Made by a program: the position numbers and the translations under genes. From contig NZ_BOOO01000022.1 of the NCBI RefSeq assembly GCF_016863275.1, forward strand, positions 1-64,000: a stretch of DNA of 64,000 nucleotides, in the 5' to 3' direction. Positions 20,490 through 55,857 of the stretch are shown here, in pieces. How positions within the stretch are numbered: position 1 is the first letter of the stretch; each line of letters begins with the position of its first letter. Origin of the DNA: Planotetraspora mira. Lineage in GTDB: Bacteria; Actinomycetota; Actinomycetes; Streptosporangiales; Streptosporangiaceae. The notes beneath the pieces are model-generated. The model was given only the letters and a program-made list of their open reading frames with translations, was not told the DNA's origin and did no database searches.

Positions 20490-21962
20490 TCAGCGGCTCT
20501 TTCTGGCATAGAGGGCGAGACGGGTATCGCCGAACGATCTGTTCGACACGAGCTTGAAGGCGCGGCGGAGCTCGACGAAACGCGGGTCCCCGATGTTCCT
20601 CGGCCCGGCAGGGGGTGCGATCAGCCACACCCGATCCAGGCCGGCGGCCGCCGCCGTGAACTGGGCAGCCGTCCGCGGTTCGTACATCCCCGGCTCATTG
20701 GTCAGATCGGTCAGATGCCGGAAGGGCTCCTCATACACGGTCGCGAACAAGCGGTACCGCTGTGGGACGAACAGGACGCCGTCGCCCGATTGCTGTTCCG
20801 CACCGAGCACCGCGGCCAGTGACCGCAGGTCGTCCGGGCGGCTCGCCGGTTCGCGGATCTCCACGTGAGAGCTGAAGGTCAATGCCCCGACCACGACGAA
20901 AGCGATGATCGGGACGGCGATGTGCCCACGAAGCGACGTGGTGACCGCGTGCAGGCCGATTCCCGCGAGCAGCGCGATGGCCGGGACCACGAAGAGCACG
21001 TAGCGCGGGTCGAAGACCGGATACACCTGCGAGATCAGGAACGACGCCAGAACCGGAGCGAACGCCCACAGGGCCACGATCGGCGTCCGGCGGGACCACC
21101 ACACACCACAGGCCGCCAGTGCGAACAGGACCACGGCTGCCGGGACGTTGCCGGCGACCTCCCGCAAAAATGCGGCCAGGTCGCCGAGATCTGGCCGGCC
21201 GAGCCAGAACAGCTGCGTCTCACGCTGCCCCGAGGCCACGACCACGAGTGGCAGCAGTGCGATTCCGGCCCCTGCGATGGCGAGGACCCAGGGCAGGACA
21301 CGGCGGGGCCGGGCCGTCCATACGGCGACGGCGTGGACGCCGACCAGCAGCAGAGCGTAGAGGTGGAACCATCCGAGCACGGCGATACTTGCCGCATATG
21401 CGATATATCGCCGCCTTGAAGGCGTCTCCAGCGCGTCGACCAGCAGCCACGTGGCCAGTACGGCGACGAGGCTGACGATGGCGTAGCTCCTGGTCTCCTG
21501 GGCGTACCGGTCGGCCATGGGCAGCAGCGCGTAGAGGAGGCCTCCGTACAGACCGGCCAGCGGTCCGGCGAGCCGGCGGCCCAGCACGGCGATTCCATAC
21601 GCGGCGGCGGCGAACGCGATCAGCGACGGAAGGCGCAGGAGGAACTCGGATCCTCCGAAAGCGGCGAACGGTCGCAGAAGCAGGTAGTAGAGGGCGTGGA
21701 CGGCGTCCAGGTCCCCCACCAACTGCCGCATGTACGACAACGGGGAACGGGCGACGACCGCGCTCACGGACTCGTCTCGCCACAGGGAGGGAACGGTGAT
21801 CCCCCACCCACCGATCGCGAGTGCGGCGAGGGCGGGCACCCACACGGAGGCCGCCCTCAGGCGGCGCCGCCCCGGCTCCTCGAACGATGGGCCTTCTGCG
21901 CTCCCCTGCGGAGGAGTCCCGGCGGCGGGAGTGCGCGGAATCGAGTCCCAAACGCTAGTCAT
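20490..21962 (-). CDS. Polytopic glycosyltransferase, GT39/mannosyltransferase-like
   Basis: A membrane enzyme of 490 residues with about 10-12 hydrophobic helices. After the first helix comes WRDESVSAVVARSPLSYMRQL, a D-E acidic pair like that of lipid-linked GT-C glycosyltransferases, followed by DAVHALYYLLLRPF. The DRYAQETRSYA loop is typical of this branch. The C-terminal 120 residues are soluble and extracytoplasmic. It probably transfers a sugar from a polyprenyl phosphate to a cell-surface acceptor; sugar and acceptor are unknown. It starts 70 bp after cvnD but a hairpin lies between, so co-transcription is uncertain. Confidence 0.75.
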   Translation of the reverse strand: MTSVWDSIPRTPAAGTPPQGSAEGPSFEEPGRRRLRAASVWVPALAALAIGGWGITVPSLWRDESVSAVVARSPLSYMRQLVGDLDAVHALYYLLLRPFAAFGGSEFLLRLPSLIAFAAAAYGIAVLGRRLAGPLAGLYGGLLYALLPMADRYAQETRSYAIVSLVAVLATWLLVDALETPSRRRYIAYAASIAVLGWFHLYALLLVGVHAVAVWTARPRRVLPWVLAIAGAGIALLPLVVVASGQRETQLFWLGRPDLGDLAAFLREVAGNVPAAVVLFALAACGVWWSRRTPIVALWAFAPVLASFLISQVYPVFDPRYVLFVVPAIALLAGIGLHAVTTSLRGHIAVPIIAFVVVGALTFSSHVEIREPASRPDDLRSLAAVLGAEQQSGDGVLFVPQRYRLFATVYEEPFRHLTDLTNEPGMYEPRTAAQFTAAAAGLDRVWLIAPPAGPRNIGDPRFVELRRAFKLVSNRSFGDTRLALYARKSR

Positions 21963-21992
21963 GCAGGAACAATATCGGACAAGATCACCCCT

Positions 21993-22020
21993 GCCCGGAG
22001 CGCGCGCTCTCGGCCCGGGC
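21993..22020 (-). terminator. GC hairpin after first conservon
   Basis: GCCCGG (21993-21998) and CCGGGC (22015-22020) enclose a self-complementary GAGCGCGCGCTC. No U-run follows. It may separate the conservon from the glycosyltransferase gene. Confidence 0.3.
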
Positions 22021-22032
22021 GTCGGTCGACGA

Positions 22033-22623
22033 CTACGCGCGGTTCCCGTCGGGGACGGCGACCCGCATGGTCAGCGCGTGCTCGACCAGCGTGATGAGCG
22101 TGCCCTTGACCGAGTCCCTGTTGCGGGCGTCGGTCCGGACGACCGGAACGTGCGAGGACAGGGTGAGCGCCTCGCGAACCTCGTTCTCGCTGTGCGGGTG
22201 GTGCCCGCCGAAGCCGTTCAGGCCCACCACGAACGGCAGTTGGGCTTCTTCGAAATAGTCCACCGCGGGGAAACTGTCGGCGAGCCGCCGTGTGTCCACC
22301 AGCACCACGGCGCCGATCGCACCGCGCACCAGGTCATCCCACATGAACCAAAATCGGTGCTGGCCAGGCGTTCCGAACAAATAAAGGATCAAATCCTGAT
22401 CCAGCGACACGCGGCCGAAGTCCATCGCCACCGTCGTCGTGGTCTTGTGCGGCGTCAATCCGACATCGTCGATGCCCGCAGAGGCGTCGGTCATCACCGC
22501 CTCGGTCGTCAACGGGACGATCTCCGACACCGCTCCGACGAAGGTGGTCTTGCCCACACCGAAACCACCCGCAACGACGATCTTCGTCGAAGTCAGCCCA
22601 CGACTAGAGCCTGCGAAGTCCAC
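22033..22623 (-). CDS. cvnD: Conservon GTPase CvnD (copy 1)
   Basis: Small Ras-like/MglA-related GTPase of the cvnABCD system. P-loop GGFGVGKTTFVGAVSE and the switch II region FGTPGQHRFWFMWDD are intact. The usual NKxD specificity motif is replaced by GLNGFGG, a known oddity of this family. In Streptomyces, CvnD proteins act with CvnA-C at the membrane in signalling that affects development and antibiotic production. The start is GTG at 22623 inside the cvnC end (20-nt overlap). It is 196 residues and highly similar to copy 2 at 26930-27514. Confidence 0.92.
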   Translation of the reverse strand: MDFAGSSRGLTSTKIVVAGGFGVGKTTFVGAVSEIVPLTTEAVMTDASAGIDDVGLTPHKTTTTVAMDFGRVSLDQDLILYLFGTPGQHRFWFMWDDLVRGAIGAVVLVDTRRLADSFPAVDYFEEAQLPFVVGLNGFGGHHPHSENEVREALTLSSHVPVVRTDARNRDSVKGTLITLVEHALTMRVAVPDGNRA

Positions 22624-53803: not shown

Positions 53804-54979
53804 ATGGACGACCGACAGCGTCTCGACCAGGCCACGGCCGGGTTGCACCCCCCGTTCGCGGTGGTCGACCTCGACGCGCTGAGGTCCAACAGCGCCGACA
53901 TGGCTCGCCGGGCGAACGGCAAGCCGATCCGCGTCGCCAGCAAGTCGATCCGCAGCCGGGCGGTCCTCGAACGCGTCCTCGCCATGGACGGCTTCGCCGG
54001 GATCATGGCGTTCACGCTCCCCGAGGCGCTCTGGCTCGTGTCATGCGGTCTGCGTGACGTGCTCGTGGCGTATCCGTCCGTGGACACCGACGCCCTCCGC
54101 GCGCTCGGCTCCGACCGCCGCGCCGCCGAAGAGATCGCGGTGATGGTCGACTCGCCGGGCCACCTGGATCTGATCGAAAGCCTCCACCTTCCTCACCAGG
54201 TCCGGATATGTCTTGATATGGACGCGACCTTTGTGGCGTTCGGCGGGAAGTTGCGCGTGGGGGCCTTACGCTCCCCCATACGCGAGCCCGACCAGGCGGC
54301 CCGGATCGCCGAGGACATCGCCGGACGCCCCGGAATGCGCCTGGTGGGCCTCATGTCGTACGAGGCGCAGATCGCCGGCGTGGGCGACAGGGTCCCCGGC
54401 GCGTACGGGCGGGTCGTCCGGTGGATGCAGGCCAGATCCCGCCAGGAACTCGCCGTACGGCGCGGGCGGGTCGTGCAGGCCGTACGGCAGGCCGCCGACC
54501 TGGAGTTCGTCAACGGCGGGGGCACGGGCAGCATCGAGCGGACGGCGGCGGAACACGCGATCACCGAGGTGGCGGCCGGCTCGGGCTTCTTCCATCCGCG
54601 GCTGTTCGACTTCTACCGGAGCTTCAGCGGGCGGCCCGCGGCGCTGTTCGCCCTGCCCGTGGTGCGTAAGCCGTCCCCCGGCGTCGTGACGGTGCTGGGC
54701 GGCGGATATCCGGCCTCAGGTCCGTCGGGAGCCAATCGGCTGCCGCATCCCCACCTGCCGGCGGGGCTGAAATACGACTCCAACGAGGGTGCGGGCGAGG
54801 TCCAGACCCCCCTGGTCGGGGACGCGGCCCATGACCTGCGGATCGGCGACCGTGTCTGGTTCCGGCACGCCAAGGCCGGCGAGTTGTGCGAGCGCTTCGC
54901 CAGCCTGCATCTCATCGAGGGCGACCGGATAGTCGAGGAAGTCCCCACCTACCGAGGAGAAGGCCAAACCTTCCTCTAA
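53804..54979 (+). CDS. Fold-type III PLP enzyme, amino acid deaminase/aldolase (D-threonine aldolase-like)
   Basis: A 391-residue alanine-racemase-fold enzyme. The PLP Lys lies in IRVASKSIRSRAVL (near residue 48), after FAVVDLDALRSN. The phosphate-binding FVNGGGTGSIERTA and the C-terminal barrel follow. RHAKAGELCERF has the His...Cys pair that binds divalent metal in D-threonine aldolase and D-serine dehydratase relatives. The exact substrate is unknown. It is probably leaderless from ATG 53804. The large repeat element begins 34 bp after its stop. Confidence 0.82.
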   Translation: MDDRQRLDQATAGLHPPFAVVDLDALRSNSADMARRANGKPIRVASKSIRSRAVLERVLAMDGFAGIMAFTLPEALWLVSCGLRDVLVAYPSVDTDALRALGSDRRAAEEIAVMVDSPGHLDLIESLHLPHQVRICLDMDATFVAFGGKLRVGALRSPIREPDQAARIAEDIAGRPGMRLVGLMSYEAQIAGVGDRVPGAYGRVVRWMQARSRQELAVRRGRVVQAVRQAADLEFVNGGGTGSIERTAAEHAITEVAAGSGFFHPRLFDFYRSFSGRPAALFALPVVRKPSPGVVTVLGGGYPASGPSGANRLPHPHLPAGLKYDSNEGAGEVQTPLVGDAAHDLRIGDRVWFRHAKAGELCERFASLHLIEGDRIVEEVPTYRGEGQTFL

Positions 54980-55012
54980 CCCCCTCCCCCTCCGCCCCAC
55001 CCCGCCCCTCCC

Positions 55013-55402
55013 GCGTGATCATGCACGAGTTCGTGAATGGGTGGCTTGACCAGCCCAAACCTCGGGCGTGATCATGCACAGGTTCGGAGATTGCGGCCTT
55101 GACCTGGCCGTTCTTCATTTGTGATCATGCACGGATTCGGACGCGACCCACCCGACCTGCGTTTCTTCAATGCGTGATCATGCACAGCGGTGGCATCCCG
55201 TGGTCTCGGACTCCGATCCACAGCTGAGATTGCATGATCACGAGCCACGTTTTCCCTGGTGAACGGCCACGCAGAAGAATCCATGCATGATCACGAAATG
55301 GATCCGCCCAGGTCAGGCCGGACATCCACGAACCTGTGCATGATCACGCCCGAGGTTTGGGCTGGTCAGGGGGCCTCTTCACGAATCTGTGCATGATCAC
55401 GC
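55013..55402. repeat. Eight-copy, 53-bp periodic GTGATCATGCAC inverted array
   Basis: GTGATCATGCAC starts at 55015, 55068, 55121 and 55174; its reverse complement lies at 55230 (first base T), 55283 (first base A), 55336 and 55389. Spacing is exactly 53 bp within each half and 56 bp across the centre. The whole element is symmetric about 55207.5; 55047-55086 is a perfect 40-bp inverted repeat of 55329-55368. The spacers also share TTCG soon after the 12-mer and GACC(A/T)G about 22 bp on. Function unknown. Confidence 0.9.
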
Positions 55403-55465
55403 ATCCCCATCCCCACCCCATCACGCATCCTCATCCCCACCCCCGTCACGCATCTCCATCACGCC
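55396..55465 (+). repeat. 24-25-bp tandem repeats next to the array
   Basis: Units beginning ATCACGCATCC and ending CATCCCCACCCC lie at 55396-55419 and 55420-55444, followed by a partial third (GTCACGCATCTCC, 55445-55465). The first unit starts within the last 12-mer of the array, so the two repeats are fused. The strand is strongly C-rich. Confidence 0.7.
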
Positions 55466-55536
55466 TTACAGCCCGACTCGACACGCGCCGCGCCCCACGC
55501 TCCGCGGGGCGCGGAGAGTGGGGCGTGGGTGGGCGG

Positions 55537-55857
55537 TCAGCGGTTGCGGCGGCGGAGCAGGATGATCGCGGCACCCACGACCAGGACGGCGCCGAGGCCG
55601 ATCAGAACCGGCGCCATGGACTGCGCCGGGTACCGCTCCTCGCCCTCCATTTCGGCGGCGGAACGCGATGCGGAACCCCCCACGAGATCCCCGAACGACG
55701 ACACCAGGTGTTCGGCGTTGGCCTTGACCTTGGCGACGCTCCGCTCGGCCACCCGTTTCGGGCTCACCCGGTCCGCGATGGCGTCGACCGTGCGAGCCAG
55801 CTCGGCCCGGGTGCGCTCGATCTCTCGTTCCAGCGCATCGGGATCGGTGTCAGCCAT
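55537..55857 (-). CDS. DUF3618 family membrane-anchored protein
   Basis: A 106-residue actinobacterial protein. DPDALEREIERTRAELARTVDAIADRVSPKRV at the start is the DUF3618 signature, forming an amphipathic helix. One C-terminal transmembrane helix (MAPVLIGLGAVLVVGAAIILL) ends in RRRNR. Function unknown; often near envelope stress genes or bcp. GGAGGGGAT precedes the ATG at 55857. Divergent from bcp. Confidence 0.9.
   Translation of the reverse strand: MADTDPDALEREIERTRAELARTVDAIADRVSPKRVAERSVAKVKANAEHLVSSFGDLVGGSASRSAAEMEGEERYPAQSMAPVLIGLGAVLVVGAAIILLRRRNR

Follow-up and report, generated by a model that had tools for sequence, protein, structure and literature searches.

The inverted array in the window, by which we mean the whole 64,000-nt stretch of Planotetraspora mira DNA analysed here, is one copy of a genome-wide family. 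We propose, with about even confidence, that this family is a gene-end element, a two-way transcription stop or insulator whose phased units would be read by a putative DNA-binding protein. The family, its placement, phasing and dialects, the RNA folding of its two-armed members and the occurrence of look-alikes in the same kind of slot were computed directly; termination, protein binding, cooperation and a shared origin with the look-alikes are what we infer. Should the elements prove to end transcription or to set boundaries, they would point to a missing protein factor and permit a direct test of it. Many gene ends carry this conserved DNA code in phased form, and variants of it exist in nature: species with another dialect, one whose arrays have shrunk (G002) and sister species that have none. 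To our knowledge, it is not well settled by what means high-GC actinobacteria terminate transcription in the absence of U-tract terminators. A search of open-access papers gave no description of these arrays; the 12-mer was matched in two papers and its reverse complement in none.

The window belongs to a 9.03-Mb genome in 100 contigs (G000). Between two convergent genes, one with an Ala_racemase_N domain (+ strand, ending at 54979) and one encoding DUF3618 (- strand, 55537-55857), it carries eight copies of a 12-mer, four on the + strand followed by four on the - strand; six copies are exact and two have one mismatch. The original prediction had placed the 12-mers at 55015, 55068, 55121 and 55174 (+) and at 55230, 55283, 55336 and 55389 (-), with an exact 53-bp period in each half and a centre distance of 56 bp, and all of these positions and distances were confirmed. 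A perfect 40-bp inverted repeat had also been described, and 55047-55086 is indeed the exact reverse complement of 55329-55368. In the whole element, which had been described as symmetric, 246 of 390 positions are self-complementary. The innermost units retain little of the conserved spacer boxes of the family. The element and its neighbours consist of the following parts:

53804..54979, + strand: upstream gene with an Ala_racemase_N domain, its 3' end towards the left arm
54980..55014, + strand: C-rich leader from the stop codon to the first motif
55015..55067, + strand: left arm unit 1, with its 12-mer at 55015-55026; begins 36 bp past the last base of the + strand gene
55068..55120, + strand: left arm unit 2
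55121..55173, + strand: left arm unit 3
55174..55226, + strand: left arm unit 4, innermost; 12-mer retained, remaining boxes degenerate
55189..55241, - strand: right arm unit 4; 12-mer with one mismatch, overlapping left arm unit 4 at the centre
55242..55294, - strand: right arm unit 3; 12-mer with one mismatch
55295..55347, - strand: right arm unit 2
55348..55400, - strand: right arm unit 1, outermost; its 41-nt spacer is 78% identical to that of left arm unit 1
55047..55086, no strand: perfect 40-bp inverted repeat, left copy
55329..55368, no strand: perfect 40-bp inverted repeat, right copy
55537..55857, - strand: convergent neighbour gene encoding DUF3618, its 3' end towards the right arm

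Two sigma-70-like promoter matches (TTGACC, 18 bp, GATCAT) lie on unit borders at 55046-55128; 0.1 was expected from shuffled sequences.

The exact 12-mer occurs 623 times in the P. mira genome (316 + 307), versus none on either strand for the reversed control, and 309 exact pairs have the arrangement 12mer-N41-12mer. This arrangement was found in 5 of 60 genomes, P. mira included, all from one genus. A scan of named genomes gave at least 98 stretches, and among the matches listed all were from Planotetraspora. Contig C1 of P. mira (382 kb) carries 13 elements, a density that would give some 300 in the whole genome. The contig has 50 exact 12-mers, not one of them isolated. Scattered or low-complexity sequence is ruled out by the 623 copies against none for the control and by the lack of isolated copies. 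A non-random array had been proposed, and the 12-mers were found clustered at 53 bp, at positions kept between species.

An element is a half-array that stands alone or opposite an inverted half-array, and 159 of 185 half-arrays contain 3-5 motifs. From these 185 half-arrays and from 358 non-redundant units we obtained a 53-bp unit consensus, GTGATCATGCAC-AGGTTCG-variable-YGACCTGC-variable-C, in which AGGTTCG occupies unit positions 12-18, YGACCTGC positions 32-39 and the C position 52; the profile of the half-arrays also showed an excess of C 5' of the first motif. The spacers had been said to share short motifs, which they do, although this understates the pattern: family spacers carry conserved boxes at fixed positions. 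The array had been said to match no CRISPR, and the unrelated spacers of a CRISPR were not found; array spacers share their fixed-position boxes and align between species, with nine sites covered by the alignments. Among 543 same-strand spacings of 45-61 bp, 501 were 53 bp, 27 were 52 bp, 8 were 54 bp and 7 took other values. Five helical turns amount to 52.5 bp (5 x 10.5), and the 528 of 543 spacings at 52 or 53 bp support the suggestion that the motifs face one side of the helix. Outside the 45-61 bp range, spacings of 18 bp (12 cases) and 35 bp (11 cases) reflect a degenerate inner motif. The distance between facing arms was most commonly 23 bp (12 of 82), then 76 bp (5 of 82), and was otherwise variable. 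It followed no clear period: the Rayleigh p was 0.20 at 10.5 bp, and 0.014-0.020 at 10.75, 11, 9 and 13 bp with nine periods tried.

Coupling between positions, analysed over the 358 units, was local, with 20 of 23 strong pairs no more than 3 nt apart, and no Watson-Crick stem was found within units among the coupled pairs. The 12-mer matches its own reverse complement at 6 of 12 positions and is not a palindrome; the consensus unit contains an imperfect 28-nt palindrome (71%), whose pairs show no covariation over the 358 units. This lack of covariation ruled out an RNA hairpin inside one unit. Long inverted matches of at least 70% identity were found in 24 of 879 pairs within one element versus 128 of 41,459 pairs between elements. 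Because the arms of one element share such matches more often, the comparison suggests that arms may have been copied from each other.

To place the elements relative to genes, we called genes with an uncurated program of our own, based on a codon score with a threshold of 20. The placement set contained 109 elements with both neighbours called (60 double and 49 single), of which 45 lay in convergent, 58 in tandem and 6 in divergent slots; the corresponding shares of 761 background intergenic regions were 19%, 55% and 26%. The binomial p values, 7e-8 for the convergent excess and 2e-8 for the divergent depletion, are optimistic, because the set spans several species and orthologues were kept separate. 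In tandem slots, the element was nearer to the 3' end than to the next start in 48 of 58 cases, with median distances of 19 versus 92 bp. Behind a gene, 96 of 110 arms started between -3 and +52 of the stop codon, and in 27 of the 110 the motif's own TGA was the stop codon of the gene. Extragenic, behind genes, and in tandem and convergent slots, the arrays show a REP/BIME-like placement. Single arms in tandem slots showed no clear orientation bias, 16 pointing with the gene and 12 opposite to it, and these slots therefore do not establish a coupling of orientation. The suggested role in partition or replication control would fit hundreds of dispersed copies poorly.

Folded as RNA, the window element reached -251.5 kcal/mol versus -153.7 kcal/mol for its shuffles (z -13.3). 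The folding sets (61 single and 44 double elements, as distinct from the 60 doubles and 49 singles of the placement set) comprised only clusters of up to 450 nt, which understates the doubles; the mean z was -8.2 for 14 of the 44 doubles drawn at random, -2.3 for the first 36 of the 61 single arms in list order and -1.5 for 24 array-free gene-end controls. The rod hairpin belongs to the doubles, since single arms fold barely better than the controls, and the long hairpin RNA that had been predicted is supported for two-armed elements and hardly so for single arms. A terminator scan of 54900-55600 gave one weak site with a T-run, inside the array, and no U-tract after a stem where the arms of the window element end. 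A known RNA family was considered and rejected, the only match being HOTTIP_1 at 19.2 bits, below its threshold of 50.

One slot was read in 19 genomes (G122 left out), and a perfect-stem hairpin was called strong if no more than 3 of 60 shuffles equalled it. Arrays with about three units per arm were present in 3 of the 19 genomes (G120, G115 and G243). Among the 16 without an array, 7 had a strong perfect-stem hairpin (G112, G119, G114, G124, G123, G110 and G130) and 9 had none by the shuffle criterion; G121 and G117 showed imperfect GC-rich hairpins by eye. One array of G002 has been reduced by collapse to a lone hairpin, each arm of which keeps one motif (-51.1 kcal/mol for the interval). 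Another G002 slot holds a GC-rich hairpin of -58.0 kcal/mol, and the corresponding array of G003 also folds strongly (z -7.1). These few loci suggest that an array and a hairpin can serve the same slot.

Arrays were present in all five Planotetraspora genomes examined (G000-G004, genus g1). Twelve of the 13 sites on P. mira contig C1 had an array in the same slot of G003, and 10 of the 13 kept at least one motif in G002, whose units never outnumbered those of P. mira. Flank identity to G003 was 90-96% for G002, mostly 93 or more, and 86-94% for P. mira; because G002 is thus the nearer of the two to G003, the shrinkage of arrays in G002 looks derived, as judged from these flanks. G002 has 238 copies of GTGATCATNCAC versus 629-706 in G000, G003 and G004. 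Planotetraspora thailandica (G001) has switched dialect: it contains 856 copies of GTGATCATGCAG (...GCAG), which occurs 47, 29, 64 and 40 times in G000, G002, G003 and G004, respectively. The window slot holds an array in G003 and G004 and one collapsed unit with a palindrome in G002, and is empty in G001. Behind a serine dehydratase gene, an array is present in G001 and only a few bases in G000 and G002-G004. These two slots therefore indicate that individual slots gain and lose arrays, with the set as a whole being maintained. Substitution in arrays was 2 to 3.5 times as fast as in other intergenic DNA. Small indels numbered 2.4-2.6 per 100 substitutions in arrays versus 6.2-9.6 in other intergenic DNA, a ratio of 0.26-0.39 that is based on small array counts (16, 13 and 3 indels in 9, 9 and 2 regions, centres included).

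Within the window's own taxonomic family, TGATCATG-N45-TGATCATG was found in 13 and GTGATCNTG-N44-GTGATCNTG in 18 of 341 genomes. A sequence model built from 65 dimers matched 19 of these genomes at E 1e-4; at most 13 candidates per genome were scored, and per-genome counts are lower bounds. Strong matches came from all five g1 genomes, G105, 5 of 15 genomes of g69, the one genome of g72 and both of g80, and the weak or single matches in the remaining genera may be due to chance. Some related genera use other motif dialects (GTGATCTTG...) and keep the 53-bp period. The loci read in g69 and g80 had at most three units per arm, mostly three, with a period of 53-54 bp, and the first unit in g69 was mostly GTGATCTTGTAGTTTGTCGCA. 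G105, which is classed in a genus apart from the other Planotetraspora, has TTCC instead of TTCG in most units.

Single-hairpin elements with an outer motif resembling that of the arrays, represented by the inverted-repeat pattern TGATCWTGNAGTT...AACTNCAWGATCA, were found in 13 of 394 genomes across the class, and the copy number reached 47 in one of them. Genus g105 of family f21 accounts for 9 of the 13, and the pattern was absent from all 41 genomes by which the window's own family is represented in this set. We read 14 such loci with the same gene caller. The 13 with both neighbours called comprised 10 convergent, 3 tandem and no divergent slots, and the motif TGA was the stop codon in 3 of the 14. 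Judging from motif and placement, these look-alikes probably share descent with the arrays. Family f21 (loci L326-L335 and L337) has a 67-69 bp repeat, TGATCTTGGAGTT...AACTCCAAGATCA, with up to 47 copies per genome and often an asymmetric loop like ATGTCCGATAGATGG. At about 1471-1563 of locus L308 (G075, genus g56), the 21-mer GTGATCATGCAGTTGTTCGCG stands opposite its complement in a perfect hairpin and the motif occurs once more after 41 bp; this locus might be a form that links the single hairpin to the array.

We propose the following mode of action for the gene-end element. Each arm, usually a row of 3-5 53-bp units close behind a stop codon, would stop or insulate transcription, in both directions if both arms are present, and two facing arms would separate convergent or tandem transcription units. 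A putative sequence-specific protein would bind each unit on one face of the helix, at the GTGATC core, the TTCG box and the GACCTGC box, and the bound units would form a cooperative roadblock or boundary. The transcript of a two-armed element would fold into a long rod hairpin, which may aid termination or shield the mRNA end. A two-way stop or boundary is favoured because the placement and the hairpin look-alikes fit it, and a DNA-binding protein fits better than an RNA fold because coupling is local and not of the Watson-Crick type, the units are phased and the spacers have few indels. The hairpin cannot be a universal part of the mechanism, because 49 of 109 elements are single arms and the folding of the 36 single arms was barely stronger than that of controls. 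The array is also dispensable at a given slot, as the empty window slot of G001 shows, which counts against the proposal. So do the lack of a clear orientation bias of single arms in tandem slots, the lone weak terminator-like site of the window array, the 9 of 16 array-free genomes with no strong perfect-stem hairpin at the slot compared and the absence of the look-alike pattern from the 41 genomes of the window's family. A more far-reaching version, which we hold only tentatively and well short of even confidence, is a dedicated nucleoprotein system at gene ends, in which a putative actinobacterial protein would read the helically phased 53-bp units past hundreds of stop codons and form directional roadblocks, the dialect would co-evolve with the protein and the single hairpins of other actinobacterial families would be ancestral.

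DNA uptake sequences occur in dialects and are used as terminators, and MIRU-VNTR and other actinobacterial tandem repeats have intergenic units of about 53 bp. The arrays depart from MIRU-VNTR in having facing arms, spacers that vary strongly from unit to unit and a period preserved between genera. Like the uptake sequences of Neisseria and Pasteurellaceae, which can form inverted pairs according to PMC1590033, the arrays contain a short conserved motif in many copies, with some intergenic inverted pairs; unlike them, they form 53-bp rows at gene ends, and none of the 50 exact copies on C1 was isolated. PMC1590033 also states that stem-loops favour convergent and 3'-end positions. With bidirectional intrinsic terminators (PMC1590033), the arrays share the slot between converging stops, and array doubles form stable hairpins; however, the arrays have a conserved primary sequence and multi-unit phased arms, single-arm arrays lack a strong hairpin, and neither arm of the window element ends in a T-run. 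REPs are described in PMC3733652 as palindromes of 20-40 bp that lie between tandem and convergent genes, frequently as opposed pairs, and REPINs in PMC3116915 as inverted REP doublets thought to use RAYTs. The arrays resemble REPs, BIMEs and REPINs (PMC3733652, PMC3116915) in their hundreds of dispersed extragenic copies, often opposite, in tandem and convergent slots and behind coding regions. They differ in the 53-bp unit with a non-palindromic 12-mer (6 of 12), in the phasing at 52-53 bp with rows of mostly 3-5 units per arm and, from REPINs, in that a RAYT-type Y1 transposase had no match in 8 of 14 array genomes. The arrays share their placement with known kinds (REPs, REPINs and stem-loops), and not their unit.

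The elements might instead organise the chromosome, with a nucleoid protein or topoisomerase bound and supercoils absorbed or domain borders set, and with no direct role in termination. BIMEs bind gyrase, and the conserved units with 52/53 spacing, the single arms without an RNA fold, the dispersal of the copies (13 elements per 382 kb) and the enrichment of convergent slots are all consistent with such a site. Two observations suit transcript ends better, namely that in 27 of 110 arms the gene stops at the motif TGA and that other genomes have hairpins in the same kind of slot, and we regard a chromosome-organising site as unlikely. The elements might also act only as RNA, in the form of a long 3' hairpin by which the mRNA is ended or stabilised and for which no DNA-binding protein is needed. 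This would agree with the very strong folding of the doubles, with a centre stem formed by two facing 12-mers at their commonest distance of 23 bp (12 of 82), with the likeness between arms of one element (24/879 versus 128/41,459 pairs at 70% identity or more) and with the existence of single-hairpin look-alikes. However, the 36 single arms fold little better than controls, no compensatory pairs were found within units, and a conserved primary sequence with 52/53 spacing would be needless for a hairpin; we consider this explanation rather improbable.

High copy number, inverted arms and two slots that are filled in some species only, the window slot and the one that follows the serine dehydratase gene, would also be expected of a selfish interspersed element of the REP/REPIN or MITE kind, spread by a transposase, for which gene ends are merely harmless targets. 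The Y1 transposase domain PF01797 was matched in 6 of the 14 array genomes (G001, G111, G117, G121, G242 and G243) but not in the other 8 (G000, G002, G003, G004, G105, G115, G120 and G130), nor in 5 genomes with hairpin look-alikes, and the viral, plasmid and phage collections searched contained no match to the array. Moreover, 12 of 13 sites are common to G003, and the dialect change of G001 touches the bulk of its copies. We therefore consider a selfish element quite improbable; mobility of the REPIN/RAYT type and an origin from viruses or plasmids are weakened. The MITE-like mobile element of the original prediction accordingly received little support, with the slots empty in some species speaking for it and the missing Y1 matches and shared sites against it. 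A promoter array, in which a GACC box and the next GTGATCAT box would act as -35 and -10 elements for antisense or 3' RNAs, is very improbable: the two promoter-like matches with 18-bp spacing in the window array (0.1 expected) favour it, but the profile of 185 half-arrays showed no such box 5' of the first unit, and divergent slots are avoided.

Two further observations concern the genome sequences around the elements. Compared with G000, G105 and G120, G002 has in opposite orientation a segment of about 460 bp that contains one gene and adjoins an element (G002:C1:562768-563228, corresponding to about 21836-22296 of G000:C1); recombination may take place at inverted arms. Contigs C13 and C14 of G001, which match either side of one P. 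mira element, each have an array near the contig end, and inverted arrays may break short-read assemblies.
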